Positions 1,446 to 64,000 of a stretch of 64,000 bases of DNA are shown here, piece after piece. A model generated the notes under the pieces. The model was not told the origin of the DNA and ran no database searches. It saw only the letters and a program-made list of their open reading frames with translations. A program made the translations under genes and the position numbers. This DNA comes from Asaia bogorensis NBRC 16594 (lineage in GTDB: Bacteria; Pseudomonadota; Alphaproteobacteria; Acetobacterales; Acetobacteraceae), in assembly GCF_001547995.1 (NCBI RefSeq), contig NZ_AP014690.1, positions 248,001 to 312,000 of the forward strand, in the 5' to 3' direction. How positions within the stretch are numbered: the stretch's first letter is position 1; each line of letters begins with the position of its first letter.

Positions 1446-2148
1446 CGGCGGCCAGAACATAGCCGCCCCCGCGTACCGTCTTGATCATCTGGGCGTTGCG
1501 CCCGTCATCCTCCAGCTTGCGGCGCAGACGGCTCACCGCAACGTCAATGGCGCGATCGAACGGCCCGGCCTGTCGGCCACGCAGCATTTCCAGCAGCATG
1601 TCACGTGTCAGGACACGGTTGGCGCGTTCGAGAAACGCCAGAAGCATGTCGTATTCGCCACCCGTCAGCGGCACTTCGGCCCCGTCCGGATTGAGCAGAC
1701 GACGGCGCGCAGGCTCGAGTGTCCAGCCCGAAAAGCGGATCATGCGTGAATCCGCCGAAAGCTTCTTGTCGGAACTGTCGGCGGTGCGACGAAGCACGGC
1801 ACGGATACGAGCCAGCAATTCACGCGGGTTGAACGGCTTGGCCACATAGTCATCAGCGCCAAATTCGAGGCCGATGATACGGTCTGTCTCATCGCTCATG
1901 GCGGTCAGCATGATGATCGGAACATTGTCCTGGCTGCGCAGCCAGCGGGCAATGTCGAGCCCGCTTTCGCCAGGGAGCATCAGGTCGAGCACCACAAGCT
2001 GATAATGACCGGCCGCCCAGGCACGACGGGCTTCACGCCCGTCGCGTGCGGCGGTCACGCGAAAATGGTTGCGCTCGAGAAAGCGGCAGAGCAGCTCGCG
2101 TATCTCGCGGTCATCATCAACGATGAGAAGGTGCGGGGTCGTTTCCAT
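1429..2148 (-). CDS. OmpR/PhoB-family response regulator
   Basis: Cytoplasmic transcription factor of 239 residues. A receiver domain fills residues 6-120, with the acidic pocket DDD near residue 11, phospho-acceptor Asp55 in VVLDLMLPG, and the conserved Lys in the AKPFNPREL stretch. A winged-helix DNA-binding domain follows at about 140-235, ending with the family-typical VRGGGYVLA turn. It is the first gene of the operon with the histidine kinase, whose start overlaps its 3' end. No strong Shine-Dalgarno sequence precedes the ATG. The family assignment is certain; the exact member (OmpR or another) cannot be told from sequence alone. Confidence 0.95.
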   Translation of the reverse strand: METTPHLLIVDDDREIRELLCRFLERNHFRVTAARDGREARRAWAAGHYQLVVLDLMLPGESGLDIARWLRSQDNVPIIMLTAMSDETDRIIGLEFGADDYVAKPFNPRELLARIRAVLRRTADSSDKKLSADSRMIRFSGWTLEPARRRLLNPDGAEVPLTGGEYDMLLAFLERANRVLTRDMLLEMLRGRQAGPFDRAIDVAVSRLRRKLEDDGRNAQMIKTVRGGGYVLAADVERL

Positions 2149-2224
2149 GAATGTAACATTGGTCCGAATCGAATGTCCCCTTCAAGGGGCTGTTTCATTC
2201 CGTCACAACTTGCGAAAACCTGTC

Positions 2225-3280
2225 TCAATCGAGCCAGGGTGGGGTCGGCAGGTTTTTGGCCCGCAGGAATTCAGGATTGAAGATCTTGGACTGGTAGCGT
2301 GCCCCACCATCGCAGAGGATTGTTACAATACGATGGCCTGGACCGAGGCGTTTCGCCACGCGAATCGCTGCCGCCACGTTAATTCCCGCCGAGCCGCCCA
2401 GCGAGATTCCCTCGCGATCCTGAAGCGAGAAGATCTGCTCAAGCGCCTCGGCATCGGGAATACGTTCGGCATCGTCAATCGTGATGCCCTCCAGATTGCC
2501 CGTGACGCGGGATTGCCCGATCCCTTCGGTAATCGAGCCGCCCGAAACACTCAGATCGTTCGATTTGACCCAACCGTAAAGCCCTGAGCCTTCCGGGTCG
2601 GCCAGAACGATCTCGGGGCGCTTGCGACCCGCCGCCTCGGCCAGTTCACCAAGGCCCAGCGCAACACCTGCCAGCGTACCACCCGTGCCGCAGGCGCAGG
2701 TGAAGGCATCGACACGACCATCGAGCTGCTGCCAGATCTCGACCGCCGTGGTTGTGCGGTGGCCTTCGCGGTTGGCGGTGTTGTCGAACTGGTTGGCCCA
2801 GACAGCATTGTCGGTTTCCTCGGCAATACGGCGCGAGACATGCACGTAATTGCCGGGGTCACGAAAGGGCTTGGCAGGCACGAGGCGCAGATCGGCCCCG
2901 ATCATGCGCAGGAAATCGATTTTCTCGCGGCTCTGCGTTTCCGGCATGACAATGATGGTGCGATAGCCACGGGCCTTGGCGACGAGGGTAAGGCCGATAC
3001 CGGTATTGCCTGCCGTGCCTTCGACGATCACACCGCCCGGCTTGAGGGCGCCCCGCTTCTCCGCATCGAGAATGATAGCCAGAGCCGCACGATCCTTGAC
3101 CGACCCTCCGGGATTCATGAACTCGGCCTTGCCGTAGATTTCGCAGCCTGTCGCTTCCGACGCCAGCTTCAGACGGATCAGCGGCGTGCCGCCAATGGCG
3201 CCGATCATACCCTCTGAAGGGTGCTGCCAGCCCGGAATGACACTGGTGGCGTGGGAGGGGGTCACGTTCTGCGTGGTCAT
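2225..3280 (-). CDS. cysK: Cysteine synthase (O-acetylserine sulfhydrylase family)
   Basis: PLP enzyme of the beta-substituted-alanine family, expected to make L-cysteine from O-acetylserine and sulfide in the cytoplasm. The PLP lysine is Lys62 in NPGGSVKDRAAL, the substrate loop is EGTAGNTGIG, and the phosphate-binding glycine loop is ACGTGGTLAG. At 351 residues it is about 30 longer than Escherichia coli CysK, mainly at the N-terminus (about 24 residues before the core) and the C-terminal tail. A rhodanese gene is transcribed divergently 72 bp away, which fits a sulfur-metabolism pairing. A cystathionine beta-synthase-like or CysM-like activity cannot be excluded. Confidence 0.85.
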   Translation of the reverse strand: MTTQNVTPSHATSVIPGWQHPSEGMIGAIGGTPLIRLKLASEATGCEIYGKAEFMNPGGSVKDRAALAIILDAEKRGALKPGGVIVEGTAGNTGIGLTLVAKARGYRTIIVMPETQSREKIDFLRMIGADLRLVPAKPFRDPGNYVHVSRRIAEETDNAVWANQFDNTANREGHRTTTAVEIWQQLDGRVDAFTCACGTGGTLAGVALGLGELAEAAGRKRPEIVLADPEGSGLYGWVKSNDLSVSGGSITEGIGQSRVTGNLEGITIDDAERIPDAEALEQIFSLQDREGISLGGSAGINVAAAIRVAKRLGPGHRIVTILCDGGARYQSKIFNPEFLRAKNLPTPPWLD

Positions 3281-3352
3281 CTACATTCCATCCTATACGT
3301 CTGCAGTTTGAGAGTTTAACGTCGCGACATGTAAAATAAATGAGGAAAAACG

Positions 3353-3754
3353 ATGGTCGACTGTATTTCGGCACGAGCTGCCTGGGAACGCCTGACGGCA
3401 GACAAGGATGCCGTCCTGATCGATGTGCGCACCCCCGGCGAATGGCAGCTGGTTGGATTGCCCGACCTCTCAACCCTCGATAAGGATGTCAAAACCCTGA
3501 GCTGGGACCCTTACGATGCCAATGGGTTCGCGCTCTCTCTGCGTGAGCTTGTACCGTCGCTGGAGACGCCCGTGTTGTTCCTGTGCCGTTCAGGCGTGCG
3601 CTCGCAGCAGACGGCGGAACTCGCGGCGCATCTCGGCTATGTCGAGGCGGTCAATGTGGTCGAGGGATATGAAGGCCAGCCGGATGCAAACGGTCAGCGC
3701 GGCCGGGTCTGTGGCTGGCAATACGAGAATCTGCCCCTGTATTTTCCCGGCTGA
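3353..3754 (+). CDS. Single-domain rhodanese-like sulfurtransferase
   Basis: Protein of 133 residues with one rhodanese domain. It shows the entry motif DVRTPGEW (residues 24-31) and the active-site loop LCRSGVRSQQTA with catalytic Cys78. No signal peptide is seen, so it is probably cytoplasmic. A good ribosome site (TGAGGAAAAACG) precedes the ATG. It is divergent from the cysteine synthase gene, so the two probably share a control region of only 72 bp. Persulfide transfer is the family role; the sulfur acceptor is not known. Confidence 0.88.
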   Translation: MVDCISARAAWERLTADKDAVLIDVRTPGEWQLVGLPDLSTLDKDVKTLSWDPYDANGFALSLRELVPSLETPVLFLCRSGVRSQQTAELAAHLGYVEAVNVVEGYEGQPDANGQRGRVCGWQYENLPLYFPG

Positions 3755-3771
3755 GAGCGGCGCTGAATGGG

Positions 3772-5166
3772 TCAGAAACCCTGTAGTCTCAGGGTTTCGC
3801 GCAGGCGTTCTGCCTCCTGGGCCACGCTTTGCGGCGTGATGGCGTCCAGCAGAGGGATTTCGGCCAGCACAGGCACCCGCCCGAAATGCTCTATGGCCGC
3901 CCGATTGGCAGCGTTCGGGGGGCCGCTCATCACCACGCCGGCAATGGCGATACTGCGGCGCTTCAAGGCTTCGAGACTGAGCAGCGTGTGATTGATCGTG
4001 CCCAGTGTGGAGCGTGTGACAAGAATGACCGGGAGGCCCAGTGTGGCCGCCCAGTCGATCAGCAGGGTCTCGTCATTGAGCGGCACCATCAGCCCGCCAG
4101 CACCCTCGACCACCAAAGGCCCTGTGCAATCCGGCAGGGTCAGGCCCTCCAGGTTGACCGTCCGGCCCTCTGCCGCCGCTGCGTCCTGCGGTGAAAGCGG
4201 GGCGAGAAAGGCATGCGCGGGGGCCATCACGCGTGAAGCGGGGAGGGCGGCAAGCGTGCTGACGCTATGCGTGTCGCCTGCTTCATCGCTCAGCCCGGTC
4301 TGAAAGGGCTTCCAGTAGGTGGCATCGAGCGCACGGGTGAGAATGGCTGACACAAGGGTCTTGCCGATCCCGGTATCCGTGCCTGTGACGAAAACGCCCC
4401 GTGTCTTTACGGCGCTGCCGAAAGCGATCTGGTAGTCCATCTCGTTGGTCATCCTGTCGAAATGCTGCATCACGCGCCGAAGTTCGGGGGCTGTCAGCTT
4501 GCGGCTGGCCTCCTTGGGCGTTGTCGCCCCGATTTTCCTGAGGTCGAGCAGAAACGCGCGTGCGGAACCTACAGGATCACGCTGCGTCTCAAGCGACCAC
4601 TCGCCCTGAAGCGACGGGGGGAGTTCAGCCAGAAGCGTTCTGGCCGTGGGATAATCCGGGAAGCCGCAGGGCAGGGATTGCGCGGCGCAGGCCTCGCGCC
4701 ATTGGGCAAAGCTGCCTTCAGCCAGCGTTGTCACCTCAAGCCGCCCACCCGGTGCAAGAAGATGGGCCAGTCGACGAAAGGCGGCTTCCCGATTGCTGAA
4801 CCACTGCATGCAGAAGCTGGAACAGATGAGATCGAACGGCCCGGGCAGGGTCGGGTGCTCGGCATCCATTACATGATAACGGATATCGGGCACGGCGCGT
4901 GCCGCGCGGGCGATCATGCCGGGTGAAAGGTCGATGGCGGTGATCTCTGCCGCCGGGAAAAGCCCGCGCAGGAGGCGGGTGAGGGCCCCAGTGCCGCAGC
5001 CCAGCTCCAGAATCCGGCGAGGCGGGTTGTCCGGCGTGACGCGCGAGGCAATACGCTGTGCAAGCGCGATGGCCGTGAGGGCCTGAACACGTGCAGCCTG
5101 ATCATAATGCTCGGCCGTGTCGAAACGCGCGGCAATCGGGGCGAGGCGGCTGGCTTCCTCACTCAT
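3772..5166 (-). CDS. bioC-bioD: BioC-BioD fusion: malonyl-ACP methyltransferase plus dethiobiotin synthetase
   Basis: One uninterrupted frame of 464 residues carries two biotin enzymes. Residues 1 to about 245 are a SAM methyltransferase of the BioC type, with motif I ELGCGTG at 54-60. BioC caps malonyl-ACP so that it can enter fatty acid synthesis. Residues from about 255 to the end are BioD, with the P-loop GTDTGIGKT, KPFQTG and the EGAGGLMVPL nucleotide-site motif; BioD closes the ureido ring of dethiobiotin using CO2 and ATP. I place the start at the ATG that overlaps the upstream esterase stop as ATGA; an in-frame ATG 39 bp further up lies inside that gene. In most bacteria these are separate proteins. 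Confidence 0.9.
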   Translation of the reverse strand: MSEEASRLAPIAARFDTAEHYDQAARVQALTAIALAQRIASRVTPDNPPRRILELGCGTGALTRLLRGLFPAAEITAIDLSPGMIARAARAVPDIRYHVMDAEHPTLPGPFDLICSSFCMQWFSNREAAFRRLAHLLAPGGRLEVTTLAEGSFAQWREACAAQSLPCGFPDYPTARTLLAELPPSLQGEWSLETQRDPVGSARAFLLDLRKIGATTPKEASRKLTAPELRRVMQHFDRMTNEMDYQIAFGSAVKTRGVFVTGTDTGIGKTLVSAILTRALDATYWKPFQTGLSDEAGDTHSVSTLAALPASRVMAPAHAFLAPLSPQDAAAAEGRTVNLEGLTLPDCTGPLVVEGAGGLMVPLNDETLLIDWAATLGLPVILVTRSTLGTINHTLLSLEALKRRSIAIAGVVMSGPPNAANRAAIEHFGRVPVLAEIPLLDAITPQSVAQEAERLRETLRLQGF

Positions 5167-55052: not shown

Positions 55053-55578
55053 ATGCCTGCTTTCTCGTTCCGGGTTACCTGGTGCCGCTATCGGCGCTGC
55101 CATGACTGCGTGAAGGCAGGTTTAACTCTCTGCCCCGCGCCCATGGCTACGATGCCATGCAAGGCTTGTACAACTCATGGGCGCTTCCTGTCTGGCTTGC
55201 CGGCAAGGTCTTATGAACCGCCTGACTGCTTGCGCAGTGTCCCTCCTGCTCTGCCAGAGTCCGTCAGAACCGTGATGGCCACCACGACCTCCGGATGTCT
55301 GAAACCAGCTCCAAGGACACATGGGCGGTTCCATGTCTTATGACGATCTTAAGGCAGGAATATTGCACTGAACAGGATCTCCATAGATTATATAAATAAA
55401 TACAATATAAAGAGATACACTTATGTGCATAAATAATATATAAATAATATAACACAGTTTGTTGCAGTGAGAATTTTTTTCATATTGTGGGTATTTTGAA
55501 ATATTGCAGCGCATATATTGGGTAGAAAGCATCCTGATACATTTCTATGGATAGGCAACTCGGACGGAGATTGTGGAA
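55053..55578. other. Intergenic region with extreme AT-rich stretch, no gene seen
   Basis: The first 300 bp are of ordinary GC with no recognisable coding sequence. From about 55370 to 55540 the composition drops sharply to long A/T runs (TATATAAATAAATACAATAT, ATAATATATAAATAATATAA). This is typical of a silenced or horizontally acquired promoter and directly precedes the Hint-domain surface protein. Confidence 0.6.
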
Positions 55579-57831
55579 ATGTCATATATCGGAGCAGGAT
55601 CGACTGTATATGGAAAAGATTACACAGATGAGTTGACGGTATACGGTACGGTCAGCGGTGGTAATTCAGTTAATACAAATATTATGAATGGTGGGGCCGC
55701 TTATTACCAGAAAAACACTGCAAAAAGAACTGTATCCAACGGTGGAAAACTTTCCGGATGTTCAACAGATTATTATGCGATCGATAATATCCTGAGTGGT
55801 GCGGTCATCTATGAGCACTCCGTACGGGCCGGAGGGAGCGTCTATCTCGATGGTGAGGCGCGGAACGTGACGATCGGCACGAATGCTTATTTCAAAGTCA
55901 ATACCAGAGGCTATCTATCCCGAGTTGAGATCGAGAATGGTGGTGTGCTCGATATGACGAGCGCCTCTTCGGGTCTTGATGGCAGAGTATACAATAGTGG
56001 TCATATCTCAGGAGGGGGCGTTGCCTCGACCGCCATTGTCAGCAATGACTCTGGCGGTACGATCACGGGACAGAGCAATGGAGGATCCCGAACGACAGCC
56101 GCTGGCGGCACACTCGTTAACTGCGTTACGGCCAATGCAGGTCGTGATGTTGTCGCTGCCGGAGGTCTGGCGCTCAGCCAGACGATTACTGCGGGGGGAA
56201 CGATTGGCGTTGCCGGTGTGGCTTCCGGCCTCAACGTCACCAGCAAGGGTATTGCCACCGTCAGCAATGGCGGTGTGGTCAAGGACGCGAACATCGCGGC
56301 AGGGGCGACCCTTACCGGCCTTGCGGGTGGCAAGTTACAGGGGGCGATCAACGTGCGTGGTATCGTCTCGGGTGGCTCGGTCTTTGGGGCCGGAACGGTC
56401 GAGCGGGTCTATAGTGGTGCCACGATCGCCAACCAGACGGTCATGTCCGGAGCGACCGTGGCAATCAATGCGGGAGGTGTTCTCGCCGGCACGTTGTCGG
56501 TTCAGGCGAATGCAACCGCTGTGATCGATGGGGCAGTCGGTGGCACGATTGATCTTGCAGGCGCCAATTATGCCACGTTGACCATACTTTCCGACAGCAT
56601 GCCATCCTCGATCATAACGGGATTCAACGGAACCACTGCGGCAAGCGACAGCATCAAGCTGGTCGGGTTGCGTCGCGAGGACGTGGTGAGCGTAGACTTT
56701 CCGACGGCTGACACCATGAGGATCACCATGCGTGACGGGTCGACCCGTACGCTCAACATCAAGGGGATCAAGGCGACGGGCTATACGTTTGGTATGGCGG
56801 CGGATGGCAGTCTGGTTGTCACTGCCTGCTTCCTGCCCGGAACCATGATCCGTACCCCTGCCGGAGACCGCGCCGTAGAAACTCTCGTAGCGGGGGATCT
56901 TGTCTGCACTGTTGGGTCGGATAGATGCGTGAGCGCGGTCGCTATCGAGTGGGTTGGCAAGGGCGAGATGACCGATGCGCAGGAAATGGAGCATTACCCG
57001 GTTCGTATTCGTCGGGGAGCGTTTGCCGAGAATGTGCCGGATGCCGATCTGCTGGTGACAGCCGAGCATTGTTTCCTGCTGGGCGGGCGCCTTGTTCCTG
57101 TTCGAATGCTGGTAAACGGTGAATCGATAAGCTTCGAGACCGGACTGCCGTCCTACAGCTATCATCATATCAAGATGCCGCACCATTCCGTTCTTCTCGC
57201 CAACAACACGCACACGGAAAGCTATTTTGACGACGGAAGCAGTGACCAGGCCGCTTCATTACAGCGACTGGGTCATGTGGACGACGTGCAGGGCTCCTCG
57301 GGAATGAACCGCTGTGCTCCGCTCGATACGACACGTGAGTTTGTAGAGCTTCTTGCCCGCAGACTCGCCGCCCGGGTGAAGGTTAGCCTGACACAGGGTC
57401 ACGTCACGCGTGAACCGGACTTGCATCTCGTGACAGATAGCGGAAAGCGCCTGAGGCCATTGCGCCGCAACGACAAGGGCTACGTATTCCAGGTGCCAGG
57501 AGATACCCGCTTTGTGCGCGTTCTCTCACGCAGCGATAGGCCCGACCTCGCCAGGGGAGCCTATATCGACGATCGCAGGGAGTTGGGTGTCCTGATCGGA
57601 GATATCCATCTTTTCAGGGAAAACGGGTGTCATGCCATCAACGAGCATCGCGAGCGCCCTTACCTTGAGGGATGGTCCGATCTTGAAAGCTCGGCCTATC
57701 GATGGACACAGGGTGACGGTCTTTTGCCACTGGCAAGATATCTGGGGTCTGATGACGCCATGCTGAGCATTGATGTTGTTGACACGTCTTTCTATCGCAA
57801 CACATCCCGGGATCTGAGAACAGCGGCATAA
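55579..57831 (+). CDS. Repeat-rich surface protein with Hint autoprocessing domain and C-terminal module
   Basis: Protein of 750 residues in three parts. Residues 1-330 are Gly/Val/Asn-rich AIDA/pertactin-like repeats of about 20 residues forming a beta-solenoid (for example TISNGG/VSNGGVV-type turns). After a linker of about 85 residues, a Hint_2 domain spans about 416-590: nucleophile Cys417 in ACFLPGTMIRTPAG, catalytic His497 in TAEHCFLL, and HHSVLLANNTHTESYF. Residues 612-750 form a further module found alone 5 kb downstream. There is no signal peptide and no autotransporter barrel, so export is unexplained. Hint chemistry would cut before Cys417. The start is the ATG after CGGAGATTGTGGAA; a GTG two codons up is possible. 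Likely an adhesin or matrix protein. Confidence 0.85.
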   Translation: MSYIGAGSTVYGKDYTDELTVYGTVSGGNSVNTNIMNGGAAYYQKNTAKRTVSNGGKLSGCSTDYYAIDNILSGAVIYEHSVRAGGSVYLDGEARNVTIGTNAYFKVNTRGYLSRVEIENGGVLDMTSASSGLDGRVYNSGHISGGGVASTAIVSNDSGGTITGQSNGGSRTTAAGGTLVNCVTANAGRDVVAAGGLALSQTITAGGTIGVAGVASGLNVTSKGIATVSNGGVVKDANIAAGATLTGLAGGKLQGAINVRGIVSGGSVFGAGTVERVYSGATIANQTVMSGATVAINAGGVLAGTLSVQANATAVIDGAVGGTIDLAGANYATLTILSDSMPSSIITGFNGTTAASDSIKLVGLRREDVVSVDFPTADTMRITMRDGSTRTLNIKGIKATGYTFGMAADGSLVVTACFLPGTMIRTPAGDRAVETLVAGDLVCTVGSDRCVSAVAIEWVGKGEMTDAQEMEHYPVRIRRGAFAENVPDADLLVTAEHCFLLGGRLVPVRMLVNGESISFETGLPSYSYHHIKMPHHSVLLANNTHTESYFDDGSSDQAASLQRLGHVDDVQGSSGMNRCAPLDTTREFVELLARRLAARVKVSLTQGHVTREPDLHLVTDSGKRLRPLRRNDKGYVFQVPGDTRFVRVLSRSDRPDLARGAYIDDRRELGVLIGDIHLFRENGCHAINEHRERPYLEGWSDLESSAYRWTQGDGLLPLARYLGSDDAMLSIDVVDTSFYRNTSRDLRTAA

Positions 57832-61197: not shown

Positions 61198-62058
61198 TCA
61201 GCCGTTGATGATCGTCCCGCCATTCACATGCAGCGTCTGGCCTGTCACGAAGGATGAATCAGCGCTCGCCAGATAGACATAGGCCGGCCCGAGTTCAGCC
61301 GGGTCGCCGCATCGGTCCATCGGCACGGAATTGGCCAGCCCGGAGACTTCCTGCGGGTCGACAGGTCCCCAGCTTGCCGGCTGCAGCGGTGTCCAGACCG
61401 GTCCTGGCGCGACCGCATTGACCCTTATGCCCTTGGAAACGAGTTCGAGTGCCAGAGCGCGGGTGAAACCCATCTCGGCGGCTTTCGTCGTGGAATAGGC
61501 CAGCAATCCTGCACTGCCGCGATAGGCATTGATGGATGAGGTATTGATGATGGCGCTGCCTTCACCCAGATGGGCAAGGGCCGCGCGCGTCAGATAGAAA
61601 TACCCGTTGATGTTGGTGTCCATATGACGCTGCCATTCATCATCGGTGATGGTGGCGCTGTTCTGGTTGACCACCTGCCAGCCGGCATTGTTCACGAGGA
61701 TATCCAGAGTGCCGAACTGCTCGATCGTCTGTTTTACAGCGTCATTGCAGAAGGCGCTGGAGCGTATGTCACCGGCGATGGCAAGCGCCTTGGTCCCTTC
61801 TTTCTCGATCAGGCTGACGGTCTCCTGCGCGTCTTCATGTTCCTCAAGGTAGAGGATGACGACATTGGCCCCTTCGCGGGCGAAATGCAGCGCGGCAGCC
61901 CGGCCGATCCCGCTGTCAGCCCCGCTGATCAGCGCCGTCTTGCCCGAAAGCTTGCCACTGCCACGATAACCATCGCGGATATGAACGGCGAGCGGGCGCA
62001 TTGCCTTTTCTACACCGGGCTGATGGGATTGCGACTGGGGAGGGATCTGCTCTGGCAT
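61198..62058 (-). CDS. SDR oxidoreductase of the stress-type (YghA/YhdF-like) group
   Basis: Protein of 286 residues. A Pro/Gln-rich leader (PEQIPPQSQSHQPG) precedes the cofactor motif ALISGADSGIGRAAALHFA; active site Ser in NTSSINAY and Tyr-x-x-x-Lys in YSTTKAAEM; VNAVAPGPVWTPLQPASW and VTGQTLHVNGG are typical of this group, which is induced by general stress in several bacteria. The ATG after CCCAAGGAGCCAGCCG is chosen over one 14 codons earlier. Confidence 0.9.
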   Translation of the reverse strand: MPEQIPPQSQSHQPGVEKAMRPLAVHIRDGYRGSGKLSGKTALISGADSGIGRAAALHFAREGANVVILYLEEHEDAQETVSLIEKEGTKALAIAGDIRSSAFCNDAVKQTIEQFGTLDILVNNAGWQVVNQNSATITDDEWQRHMDTNINGYFYLTRAALAHLGEGSAIINTSSINAYRGSAGLLAYSTTKAAEMGFTRALALELVSKGIRVNAVAPGPVWTPLQPASWGPVDPQEVSGLANSVPMDRCGDPAELGPAYVYLASADSSFVTGQTLHVNGGTIING

Positions 62059-62472
62059 CGGCTGGCTCCTTGGGTCGAATGACCACGGATACGATTTCAC
62101 GGACCCGTGAAGAATGCCTCACATGGCGTGATGTTCCGTCAGGTCACAGTGTTCAACCCGTTGTGAACGACCCTGCTCACAAGAAGGGAGCGGCAGCCTG
62201 AAGCGTGTTCTTTGATCGCCAGAGAGGTTTCATGGAAATTCCATTACGTTGAAACGTTCATCCGACCGCCCTCTGCGATGTCAGGCTGATGGGGGAAGAC
62301 TGTCCTGTTCGAGCATGGTGTTGCACGGGCAAAAGGGGGTGGTTCACAAGGATGTAAAAGGCTAGAGAGATTTTCCTGCGTTCTGTCCCGCCCGCTGGGG
62401 GGATCGCGCCAGTCGATCAGGTGAAGACACGTTTCCCGGATCCGTTATGTCGCGCTGTCAACCTCGTGTCGC
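62059..62472. other. Intergenic region, no clear gene
   Basis: The region contains the control region of the SDR gene on the minus strand. A perfect 13-bp palindrome ATGGAA-A-TTCCAT stands at 62232-62244, bracketed by GTTTC and GAAAC. No other gene is seen. The frame of the next gene opens only at 62425. Confidence 0.5.
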
Positions 62473-62913
62473 GTGCCTTTGTTTTCTTCAGGGAGCCTGG
62501 TCCTGACTCGTTCCGATGATCCCAATCTCCATCTGCTTGATGAGAGAGGGCGACGCATAAGAGCCGCACGCAAGAACGGCAGGGTCTGGATATTCATGGT
62601 GCCAGGGCAGATCCAGACCGTACGACTGGTGTCGAGGCTTTTTCATCCTGCCTGGGCTGAGGGCAGTCATTACGGCCCATCGCGCGGTGTGCTTGTCGGC
62701 AAGATCACGTTCTTCGACTCAAACCGGACCCATACGATGACCGAGCATCTCGACAGCCCTGCGCTAGACGGCTGGTGTGAGAAACACTCAGCCCAGTCAC
62801 GCTGGACTTCGGGGGATGCAATGCTGTCTCTGGGTGATCAGGACCAGATCGACCCCGGTGTGCTTTCGGTCGAGATCCTGTCTGACGAAACATATGAGGA
62901 CGACGATCTCTAA
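62473..62913 (+). CDS. Free-standing copy of the C-terminal module of the Hint-domain surface protein
   Basis: Protein of 146 residues that aligns along most of its length with residues 612-750 of the Hint protein 5 kb upstream: NLHLLDERGRRIRAARKNG against DLHLVTDSGKRLRPLRRND, FMVPGQIQTVRLVSRLFHP against FQVPGDTRFVRVLSRSDRP, RGVLVGKITFF against LGVLIGDIHLF, and SRWTSGDAMLSLG against the YRWTQGD and AMLSID segments. The start is a GTG without a ribosome site and no ATG lies upstream in frame. It may be a decayed remnant of a second Hint protein or an independent small partner. The function is unknown. Confidence 0.75.
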   Translation: MPLFSSGSLVLTRSDDPNLHLLDERGRRIRAARKNGRVWIFMVPGQIQTVRLVSRLFHPAWAEGSHYGPSRGVLVGKITFFDSNRTHTMTEHLDSPALDGWCEKHSAQSRWTSGDAMLSLGDQDQIDPGVLSVEILSDETYEDDDL

Positions 62914-62980: not shown

Positions 62981-64000
62981 TCAGGACCGGCGACCCGTCT
63001 TGCGTGTTGCGACACGGCGGGCACGTCGCTTGCCAAGCCAGATCAGCACGCCTGTAGCGGCAAGAGCCGCCGTAGCGACACCGCTCAGACAAACCAGAAT
63101 ACGCCCCGGCAGTCCTGCGATCCGCCCGCTATGAAAAGGGTCCTGTATCTGCAGGATCATATCGCCAAGGCGGCCCTGGGGCGCCATTACGGCCTGCTTC
63201 GTCGCACCTGTCTGCAAATCCACTGTGACGAGCGGGCTGCCAAACCCGGCAGGAAAACGATCCGAGTCACTGAACAGATAGAACAGGGCGGTATCGGGCG
63301 CGTGGGTCAGCATGAGGGCAGCGGGTCGGGCAGACCAGCCATGCGTGATAACCCATTTGTGGGCGCGACTCTCGGCCTGTTCTAAGGTCAATGCATGCGG
63401 GCCCCCGGGCAGGGCAATCTCGGCTTGCGGCGGGGCCAGAGGGAACAGGGCACTGACAGCAGGCTGGAAGATCTGGGGGCCGAGTGCCAGCGCCACGCCA
63501 CTGACTGCCATGCCGAGAAACAGCAGCCACAACCATAATCCTGCAGCCCGATGCAGGTCGAAAAACAGGCGCAGGGCATTGCGGGGAGAGGCCACCAGCC
63601 ATGATTTCTTCCATCCCGGCCAGAAGCGCTGCCGCCACGGAGCAAGGGCAGGCGGCAGGGTGAGGAGGAGGCCATTCAGGCAATCCAGACTCCAGATCAG
63701 CGCTGTGATGCCGACAATCCAGAGCCCTGTCTGACCGGCAACCAGCGAATAATGCAGCCGGTAGATAAAGGGCATCAGGGCGCGCCGCCCGAGGCAGCAC
63801 CCCTCGCTCAGTCGCCCCCCCATTTCATGACCATCCGATGGATCGAGAAAGATCTCGTCCCATAACGGGTGTCCGGCATGGTCCCTGAGCGGTGAGAGAT
63901 AGGCATGGATCGTCTCGAAGCGGGCAGGCCTGTAATCGAGCAGGATGAGCGATTGACCGGGGTGCCGCGTTTCGATGGTTCTGATCAGGTCAGATGGCGC
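62981..64000 (-). CDS. PepSY-TM (PiuB-type) membrane protein, 5' end beyond window
   Basis: Inner-membrane protein of which 339 residues are visible; the N-terminus lies past the right edge, since the frame is open to position 64000. The visible part starts in a PepSY-like periplasmic region (RDHAGHPLWDEIFLDP), then membrane helices (MPFIYRLHYSLVAG, LWIVGITALIWSL, LWLWLLFLGMAVSGVAL) with the YRLHYSL and DLHRAAGLW histidines typical of the family, a second PepSY-like segment, and a last helix before a basic tail. Members accompany TonB-dependent siderophore receptors and are thought to be ferric reductases or flavin-linked electron carriers. Confidence 0.9.
   Translation of the reverse strand, partial: APSDLIRTIETRHPGQSLILLDYRPARFETIHAYLSPLRDHAGHPLWDEIFLDPSDGHEMGGRLSEGCCLGRRALMPFIYRLHYSLVAGQTGLWIVGITALIWSLDCLNGLLLTLPPALAPWRQRFWPGWKKSWLVASPRNALRLFFDLHRAAGLWLWLLFLGMAVSGVALALGPQIFQPAVSALFPLAPPQAEIALPGGPHALTLEQAESRAHKWVITHGWSARPAALMLTHAPDTALFYLFSDSDRFPAGFGSPLVTVDLQTGATKQAVMAPQGRLGDMILQIQDPFHSGRIAGLPGRILVCLSGVATAALAATGVLIWLGKRRARRVATRKTGRRS

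Follow-up and report, generated by a model that had tools for sequence, protein, structure and literature searches.

In polymorphic toxin systems, a Hint domain can be followed by a C-terminal domain that also occurs alone. In Hedgehog proteins, the region after Hint recognizes the acceptor (PMC2362128, PMC7242414). For Hint proteins of this kind in acetic acid bacteria, a literature search returned nothing specific with the terms used; a mutant analysis of a cellulose producer lists one Hint_2 protein, only as "unknown" (PMC11999647). In RNA-seq data published for Asaia bogorensis NBRC 16594, nine short hypothetical genes of less than 450 bases are reported to be raised in co-culture (PMC4596401). 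Here, we analyzed a 64,000-nucleotide stretch of the genome of this flower bacterium, hereafter called the window, which contains a full-length Hint protein and, 5 kb away, a short open reading frame that carries only the C-terminal module of such proteins. The frame is probably a gene under selection that originated from a Hint adhesin, and acetic acid bacteria have given rise to several genes in this way.

The Stand-Alone Frame Belongs to the C-Terminal Module Family of Hint_2 Proteins

The sequence-only reading had likened the 146-residue product to the C-terminal module of the Hint protein, and this resemblance is real: in a BLASTP alignment with residues 614-743 of that protein (55573-57831), we observed 36% identity over 130 amino acids, with 58% positives, two gap positions and an E-value of 2e-27. 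The stand-alone is a member of the C-module family, since homology extends across the whole module and the invariant G-W and R-W-T-x-G are present; the invariant motifs LHL, R...F.P, GVLVG, GW and RWT.G are all kept, and a chance match is ruled out. The Hint domain is indeed absent from the stand-alone, a Pfam search of which returned no family at all and no Hint_2 domain, and no match was obtained in NCBIfam, PHROG or PADLOC. The features of the locus are listed in Table 1.

Table 1. Features of the stand-alone module, its chromosomal slot and the nearby Hint protein. Positions refer to the window.
Feature	Position	Strand	Basis
Full-length Hint protein, 752 residues (repeats, Hint_2, linker and C-module), one of 14 fused paralogues	55573-57831	+	
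Hint_2 domain (residues 419-554) of the Hint protein	56827-57234	+	Pfam
Fused C-module of the Hint protein	57406-57828	+	Alignments
DDRR of the fused module	57568-57579	+	Alignment
SDR gene, left flank of the slot	61198-62100	-	Slot defined together with the PepSY-like gene and compared across Asaia
Open reading frame with GTG start, 146 amino acids, stand-alone C-module	62473-62913	+	Open reading frame, translation, BLASTP
AGGGAG, candidate Shine-Dalgarno	62490-62495	+	GGAG-type block in 5/5 Asaia orthologues
In-frame CTG, probable start, 7 nt after AGGGAG	62503-62505	+	CTG aligned in 5/5 orthologues
Conserved module, from DDPNLHL to the C-terminus, predicted beta-sandwich	62515-62910	+	Ortholog comparison, model
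Remodelled loop LFHPAWAEGSHYGPSR; in fused copies, RPxDxxGPFxDDRRxL; Arg in place of the Leu that precedes GVLVG	62638-62685	+	Alignments
PepSY-like membrane protein gene (named by sequence impression; synteny marker only), right flank of the slot	62981-63823	-	

The A. bogorensis genome, searched as one contig of 3,198,265 bases, contains 15 copies of the module, 14 of which end long open frames (501-938 residues), the remaining one being the stand-alone. The module is therefore the constant, standard C-terminus of a large family of Hint_2 paralogues, and the copy 5 kb off is one among many. Thus, the "twin" described 5 kb away does exist, but it is merely one of 14 paralogues and, in the tree, not the closest relative of the stand-alone. 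Its Hint_2 domain (PF13403) was recognized by Pfam at 5.8e-32, and no signal peptide was evident upon inspection of its sequence. Beyond the Acetobacteraceae, the module gave no match at 1e-6 in the sampled genomes of the class.

The constancy of the module bears on the proposal that the pair represents a polymorphic-toxin cassette, with the stand-alone as an immunity-like protein. A Hint domain with a C-terminal domain behind it that can also stand by itself does fit such systems, but across the 14 paralogues the module stays constant instead of varying as a toxin tip would, and the stand-alone itself represents a divergent copy of this domain. Moreover, no toxin, PADLOC or Pfam match was found, no immunity family was matched, and the closeness to the Hint gene 5 kb off is not kept in two other Asaia genomes (G002 and G003), where this gene has no counterpart near the stand-alone. 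We consider this proposal extremely improbable.

The Frame Is Maintained by Purifying Selection at a Shared Chromosomal Slot

The slot between the SDR and PepSY-like genes was compared in A. bogorensis (G000) and eight other Asaia genomes (G001-G008). It was found to be occupied by the stand-alone in five of them (G000, G001, G002, G003, and G008), and the gene was intact in all but G001, where it is broken by a frameshift and a TAG codon. No SDR gene was found in G001, and that of G008 is on a different contig from the stand-alone. In G004-G007, just 120-210 bp or so separate the flanks of the slot, and the search detected no module between them. The stand-alone is dispensable in Asaia, because one copy is broken and four genomes lack the gene.

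The four intact copies hold the frame at 51-72% amino acid identity (slot stand-alones: G002, 71%; G003, 52%; G008, 59%), and their differences fall mainly at the third codon position. Pairwise dN/dS values ranged from 0.12 to 0.28 (Nei-Gojobori) and are approximate, as dS is close to saturation; for comparison, fused modules of G000 and G002 gave 0.07 and 0.18. In a neutral simulation of one pair at dS 1.15, a mean of 8.4 stop codons accumulated and the probability of finding none was 0.0004. The Asaia stand-alone is thus under purifying selection. A disrupted frame and a dN/dS near 1, as expected if only decayed fragments persisted, were not what we observed, with four of the five copies intact and G001 as the exception.

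A CTG Codon Is the Best Candidate for the Translation Start

When the five Asaia copies were aligned, conservation upstream of the module began at a (G)GGAG block, with a CTG in frame behind it. In G008 and G001, in-frame stop codons (TGA, TAG) are located a few codons 5' of this CTG, and GTG 62473 has an in-frame counterpart in G002 only. GTG 62473 is an unlikely start, since an in-frame stop just before the CTG occurs in two of the five copies. The best inference, although unproven, is that translation begins at CTG 62503, behind AGGGAG. We agree with the earlier remark that the A. bogorensis stand-alone has no ATG; the lack of a ribosome site noted at the same time holds true for GTG 62473 but not for the CTG, which AGGGAG precedes by 7 nt. 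No sigma-70-like promoter was found for the stand-alone.

These data also bear on the idea that the frame is a pseudogene, an untranslated remnant of an old Hint gene. The missing ATG, the frameshift and TAG in G001 and the four Asaia genomes without the gene would be explained in this way, but the four intact frames, with their low dN/dS and the small probability of a stop-free pair, and the conserved GGAG..CTG start region argue against it, as do the parallel families described below, which are conserved and start with ATG behind ribosome sites. We regard a pseudogene as very unlikely, and the stand-alone is probably not a decaying remnant.

The Stand-Alone Probably Arose by 5' Loss of a Hint Gene in Place

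At the collinear site of Swaminathania salitolerans (L069), we found an intact fused Hint gene of 631 residues, followed by SDR (85% identity), panC (62%), panB (76%), and branched-chain aminotransferase (84%) genes, the names being given by sequence impression. The fused module of this gene and the stand-alone of A. bogorensis GD-01 share about 50% identity. A single clade (support 100/93) comprised the Asaia stand-alones in the tree and was grouped with fused copies of Swaminathania and G004 (93/89; 94/75 in a second tree). The nearest relatives of the stand-alone are thus two fused Hint proteins, that of Swaminathania, encoded at the matching chromosomal position, and that of G004.

The full-length Hint gene at the collinear site points to 5' loss in place and not to copying of the Hint gene 5 kb away. 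Most likely, the stand-alone arose when the 5' part (repeats and Hint) of a full-length Hint gene at the slot was lost. In an ancestor of part of Asaia, the repeats, the Hint domain and the linker would have disappeared, and the freed module would have gained its own translation start, probably the CTG behind AGGGAG. The sequence-only reading had offered the remnant of a duplicated Hint adhesin as one interpretation; its origin from a Hint gene by 5' truncation stands, but neither duplication from the neighbour nor the term remnant does, with the frame kept at a dN/dS of about 0.2 in four of five copies. Upstream of the stand-alone, HMM searches in three frames detected no significant Hint or linker remnant in any of the five Asaia copies. 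Short visual resemblances to Hint or linker upstream of the G001 and G008 copies were discarded.

Most of the selection on the Asaia stand-alone is likely to postdate the truncation, given that boundary, loop change and clade are common to all copies. A separate truncation in each lineage would date part of the selection signal to the fused state, but the shared boundary, the loop loss and the monophyly argue against it.

One Loop Distinguishes Stand-Alone from Fused Modules

The columns conserved among fused modules are mostly retained in the stand-alones, except for one contiguous loop before the GVLVG strand. The DD[RQ]R motif was present in 58 of 58 fused copies, and in none of the four Asaia stand-alones or of the five from another genus (g55); in a third genus (g61), it is eroding, with DDRR, DERR, DECR, DDHR, and DDCR variants. 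Leu precedes GVL in 92% of fused copies and in none of 16 stand-alones, 14 of which have Arg directly before GVL. G-W and R-W-T-x-G were present in all 16 stand-alones compared.

These patterns suggest a role of the loop in the fused state, most simply contact with Hint or the linker, whereas the remainder of the module may carry a function independent of Hint. The DDRRxL loop would then couple the module to Hint and become dispensable or harmful once Hint is gone.

Stand-Alone Modules Recur in Other Genera

In genus g55, a stand-alone family is conserved in five species, each with an ATG at the corresponding position, and dN/dS values are 0.09-0.30. The neighbourhood of this family is different and includes, in G223, amidohydrolase and rdgB/rph (named by sequence impression). 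The g61 family was found in 7 of 19 species (dN/dS 0.17-0.30), with a ribosome-site-like GGGGAAGAAA before the ATG, and the fused gene of g61 is its sister in the tree (support 100/100). A single clade of Asaia, g55 and g61 stand-alones was rejected (AU p = 0.008), whereas uniting just the Asaia and g55 stand-alones was not (AU p = 0.10). Because of these two outcomes, at least two origins of the stand-alone are supported, with three being likely.

Further single cases were detected in G275, G003, G006, G008, and G001. In locus L086 (G001:C43:129500-134500), a Hint protein encoded at 624-1658 on the plus strand ends exactly after the linker, without a C-module, and a stand-alone module frame that keeps DDRR (1859-2641, minus strand) is located about 200 bp downstream of it, the two converging. 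Locus L078 (G003:C60) contains tandem pieces, namely a fused Hint gene (1-2958), an overlapping second module frame (2954-3457) and a partial Hint frame (3461-3901). In L079 (G008:C179), a stand-alone module that keeps DDRR (2070-2567) is found just 3' of a transposase-like frame, named by sequence impression, and seems to represent a recent truncation caused by an insertion element. In L083 (G275:C114), a 233-residue frame (2197-2895) comprises linker and module, without Hint and with DDRR lost; a search of 40 further genomes from this genus at 1e-30 revealed no stand-alone orthologue. The short module frames in L087-L090 (G005, G006) adjoin Hint frames and were left out of the stand-alone count, as they look like frameshifted genes or poor assembly.

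Possible Function of the Free Module

AlphaFold predicted the stand-alone as a beta-sandwich, with strands throughout (pLDDT 80, pTM 0.75). A PDB fold search with this model returned no convincing relative (best Foldseek E-value 6e-3, best Z 6.5), nor did a search of the PDB for sequence relatives of the module, and therefore no function was assigned by fold. The joint model of Hint and module was of low confidence (pLDDT 62, pTM 0.41), and we make no claim on docking of the loop.

In an alignment of 14 fused proteins, the Hint Cys and TxxH are invariant, and no conserved Asn (His-Asn) was found at the C-terminal end of Hint. Because Cys and TxxH are present and the Asn is absent, cleavage is expected at the N-terminal end of Hint, which would leave the module attached to Hint in the manner of Hedgehog. 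By analogy, binding of a partner or acceptor by the C-module is our leading working idea, following from this expected Hedgehog-like cleavage. A canonical C-side cleavage that frees the module is not expected in the absence of a conserved C-terminal Asn. Consequently, the evidence agrees with one half of the earlier suggestion, a discrete partner, but its other half, the mimicry of a fragment set free by Hint cleavage, is not supported, as the splice-type Asn is missing.

A more specific proposal is that the C-module is the acceptor- or adduct-recognition region of Hint autoprocessing and that the free copy acts in trans as an accessory, which would supply, compete for or sequester the acceptor or the Hint partner. 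The order passenger-Hint-C-module and the Hint residues described above, which may be compared with Hint-SRR of Hedgehog (PMC2362128, PMC7242414), are consistent with this proposal, as are the fused Hint proteins that coexist with the stand-alone in every genome examined for both and the loss of the fused-specific loop from the stand-alones. However, the predicted beta-sandwich differs from the helical Hedgehog SRR (PMC7242414), and the joint model is of low confidence. We consider this proposal possible but rather unlikely. In its broadest form, Hedgehog-like Hint proteins would have been split repeatedly in acetic acid bacteria, and the recognition module for the acceptor or partner would persist as a selected gene that acts in trans on the full-length Hint proteins still present. 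Such a two-component Hint autoprocessing system, with the Leu-to-Arg change in the loop formerly coupled to Hint as the mark of the freed state, appears quite unlikely.

Alternatively, the C-module may be an export or surface-retention domain, with the free copy as an orphan unit, that is, an exported lectin-like protein. The position of the module at the extreme C-terminus, the lack of an evident signal peptide in the Hint protein of the window and a weak structural resemblance to glycosidase beta-domains (Z 6.5) would agree with such a role, but the structural matches are too weak to tell relatives apart from common folds, and no secretion system was tied to the Hint/module genes. We judge this explanation unlikely.

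We return to a functional stand-alone protein, begun as the C-terminal module of a Hint_2 adhesin, freed by 5' loss and deprived of its loop, which we consider the probable explanation. Homology, a shared slot, a syntenic full-length counterpart, purifying selection, parallel families and loop loss were each found in the comparisons above, and the free module is most likely a small protein that retains the partner-binding function of the module. It would act on its own in trans and may still bind the target of the fused module, be it a substrate, a surface glycan or a partner of the Hint proteins.

The small stand-alone modules that natural selection has kept in three genera can serve as ready reagents in the search for the binding target of the C-module, and the loop missing from them indicates which residues probably link it to Hint. 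Repeated formation of stand-alone genes by 5' loss also provides a clean example of gene birth by fission, in which the CTG start can be tested.

Comparison with Known Systems

Like polymorphic toxins with Hint pre-toxin domains, for example MafB, the fused proteins have a Hint domain followed by a C-terminal domain, but unlike in such systems this domain is constant, without a toxin match or an immunity gene pattern. They share the Hint fold with BIL domains, and a profile of Hint and module matches the BIL structure 2lwy (E = 2e-4); unlike BIL type A and intein-like domains, they have no conserved C-terminal Asn at the module side. We know of no Hog family that keeps the ARR as a separate gene. 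As in Hedgehog/Hog proteins (Hint with SRR/ARR), the fused relatives show the passenger-Hint-C-terminal order, the Hint N-terminal Cys and TxxH, whereas the C-module is a predicted beta-sandwich and the SRR a helix-loop-helix (PMC7242414). Finally, the stand-alone carries the C-terminal module of the acetic-acid-bacterial Hint_2 (PF13403) proteins, annotated only as "Hint domain-containing protein" (about 35-50% identity), and differs from them in having neither Hint domain nor repeats, a start of its own and a lost DDRRxL loop.
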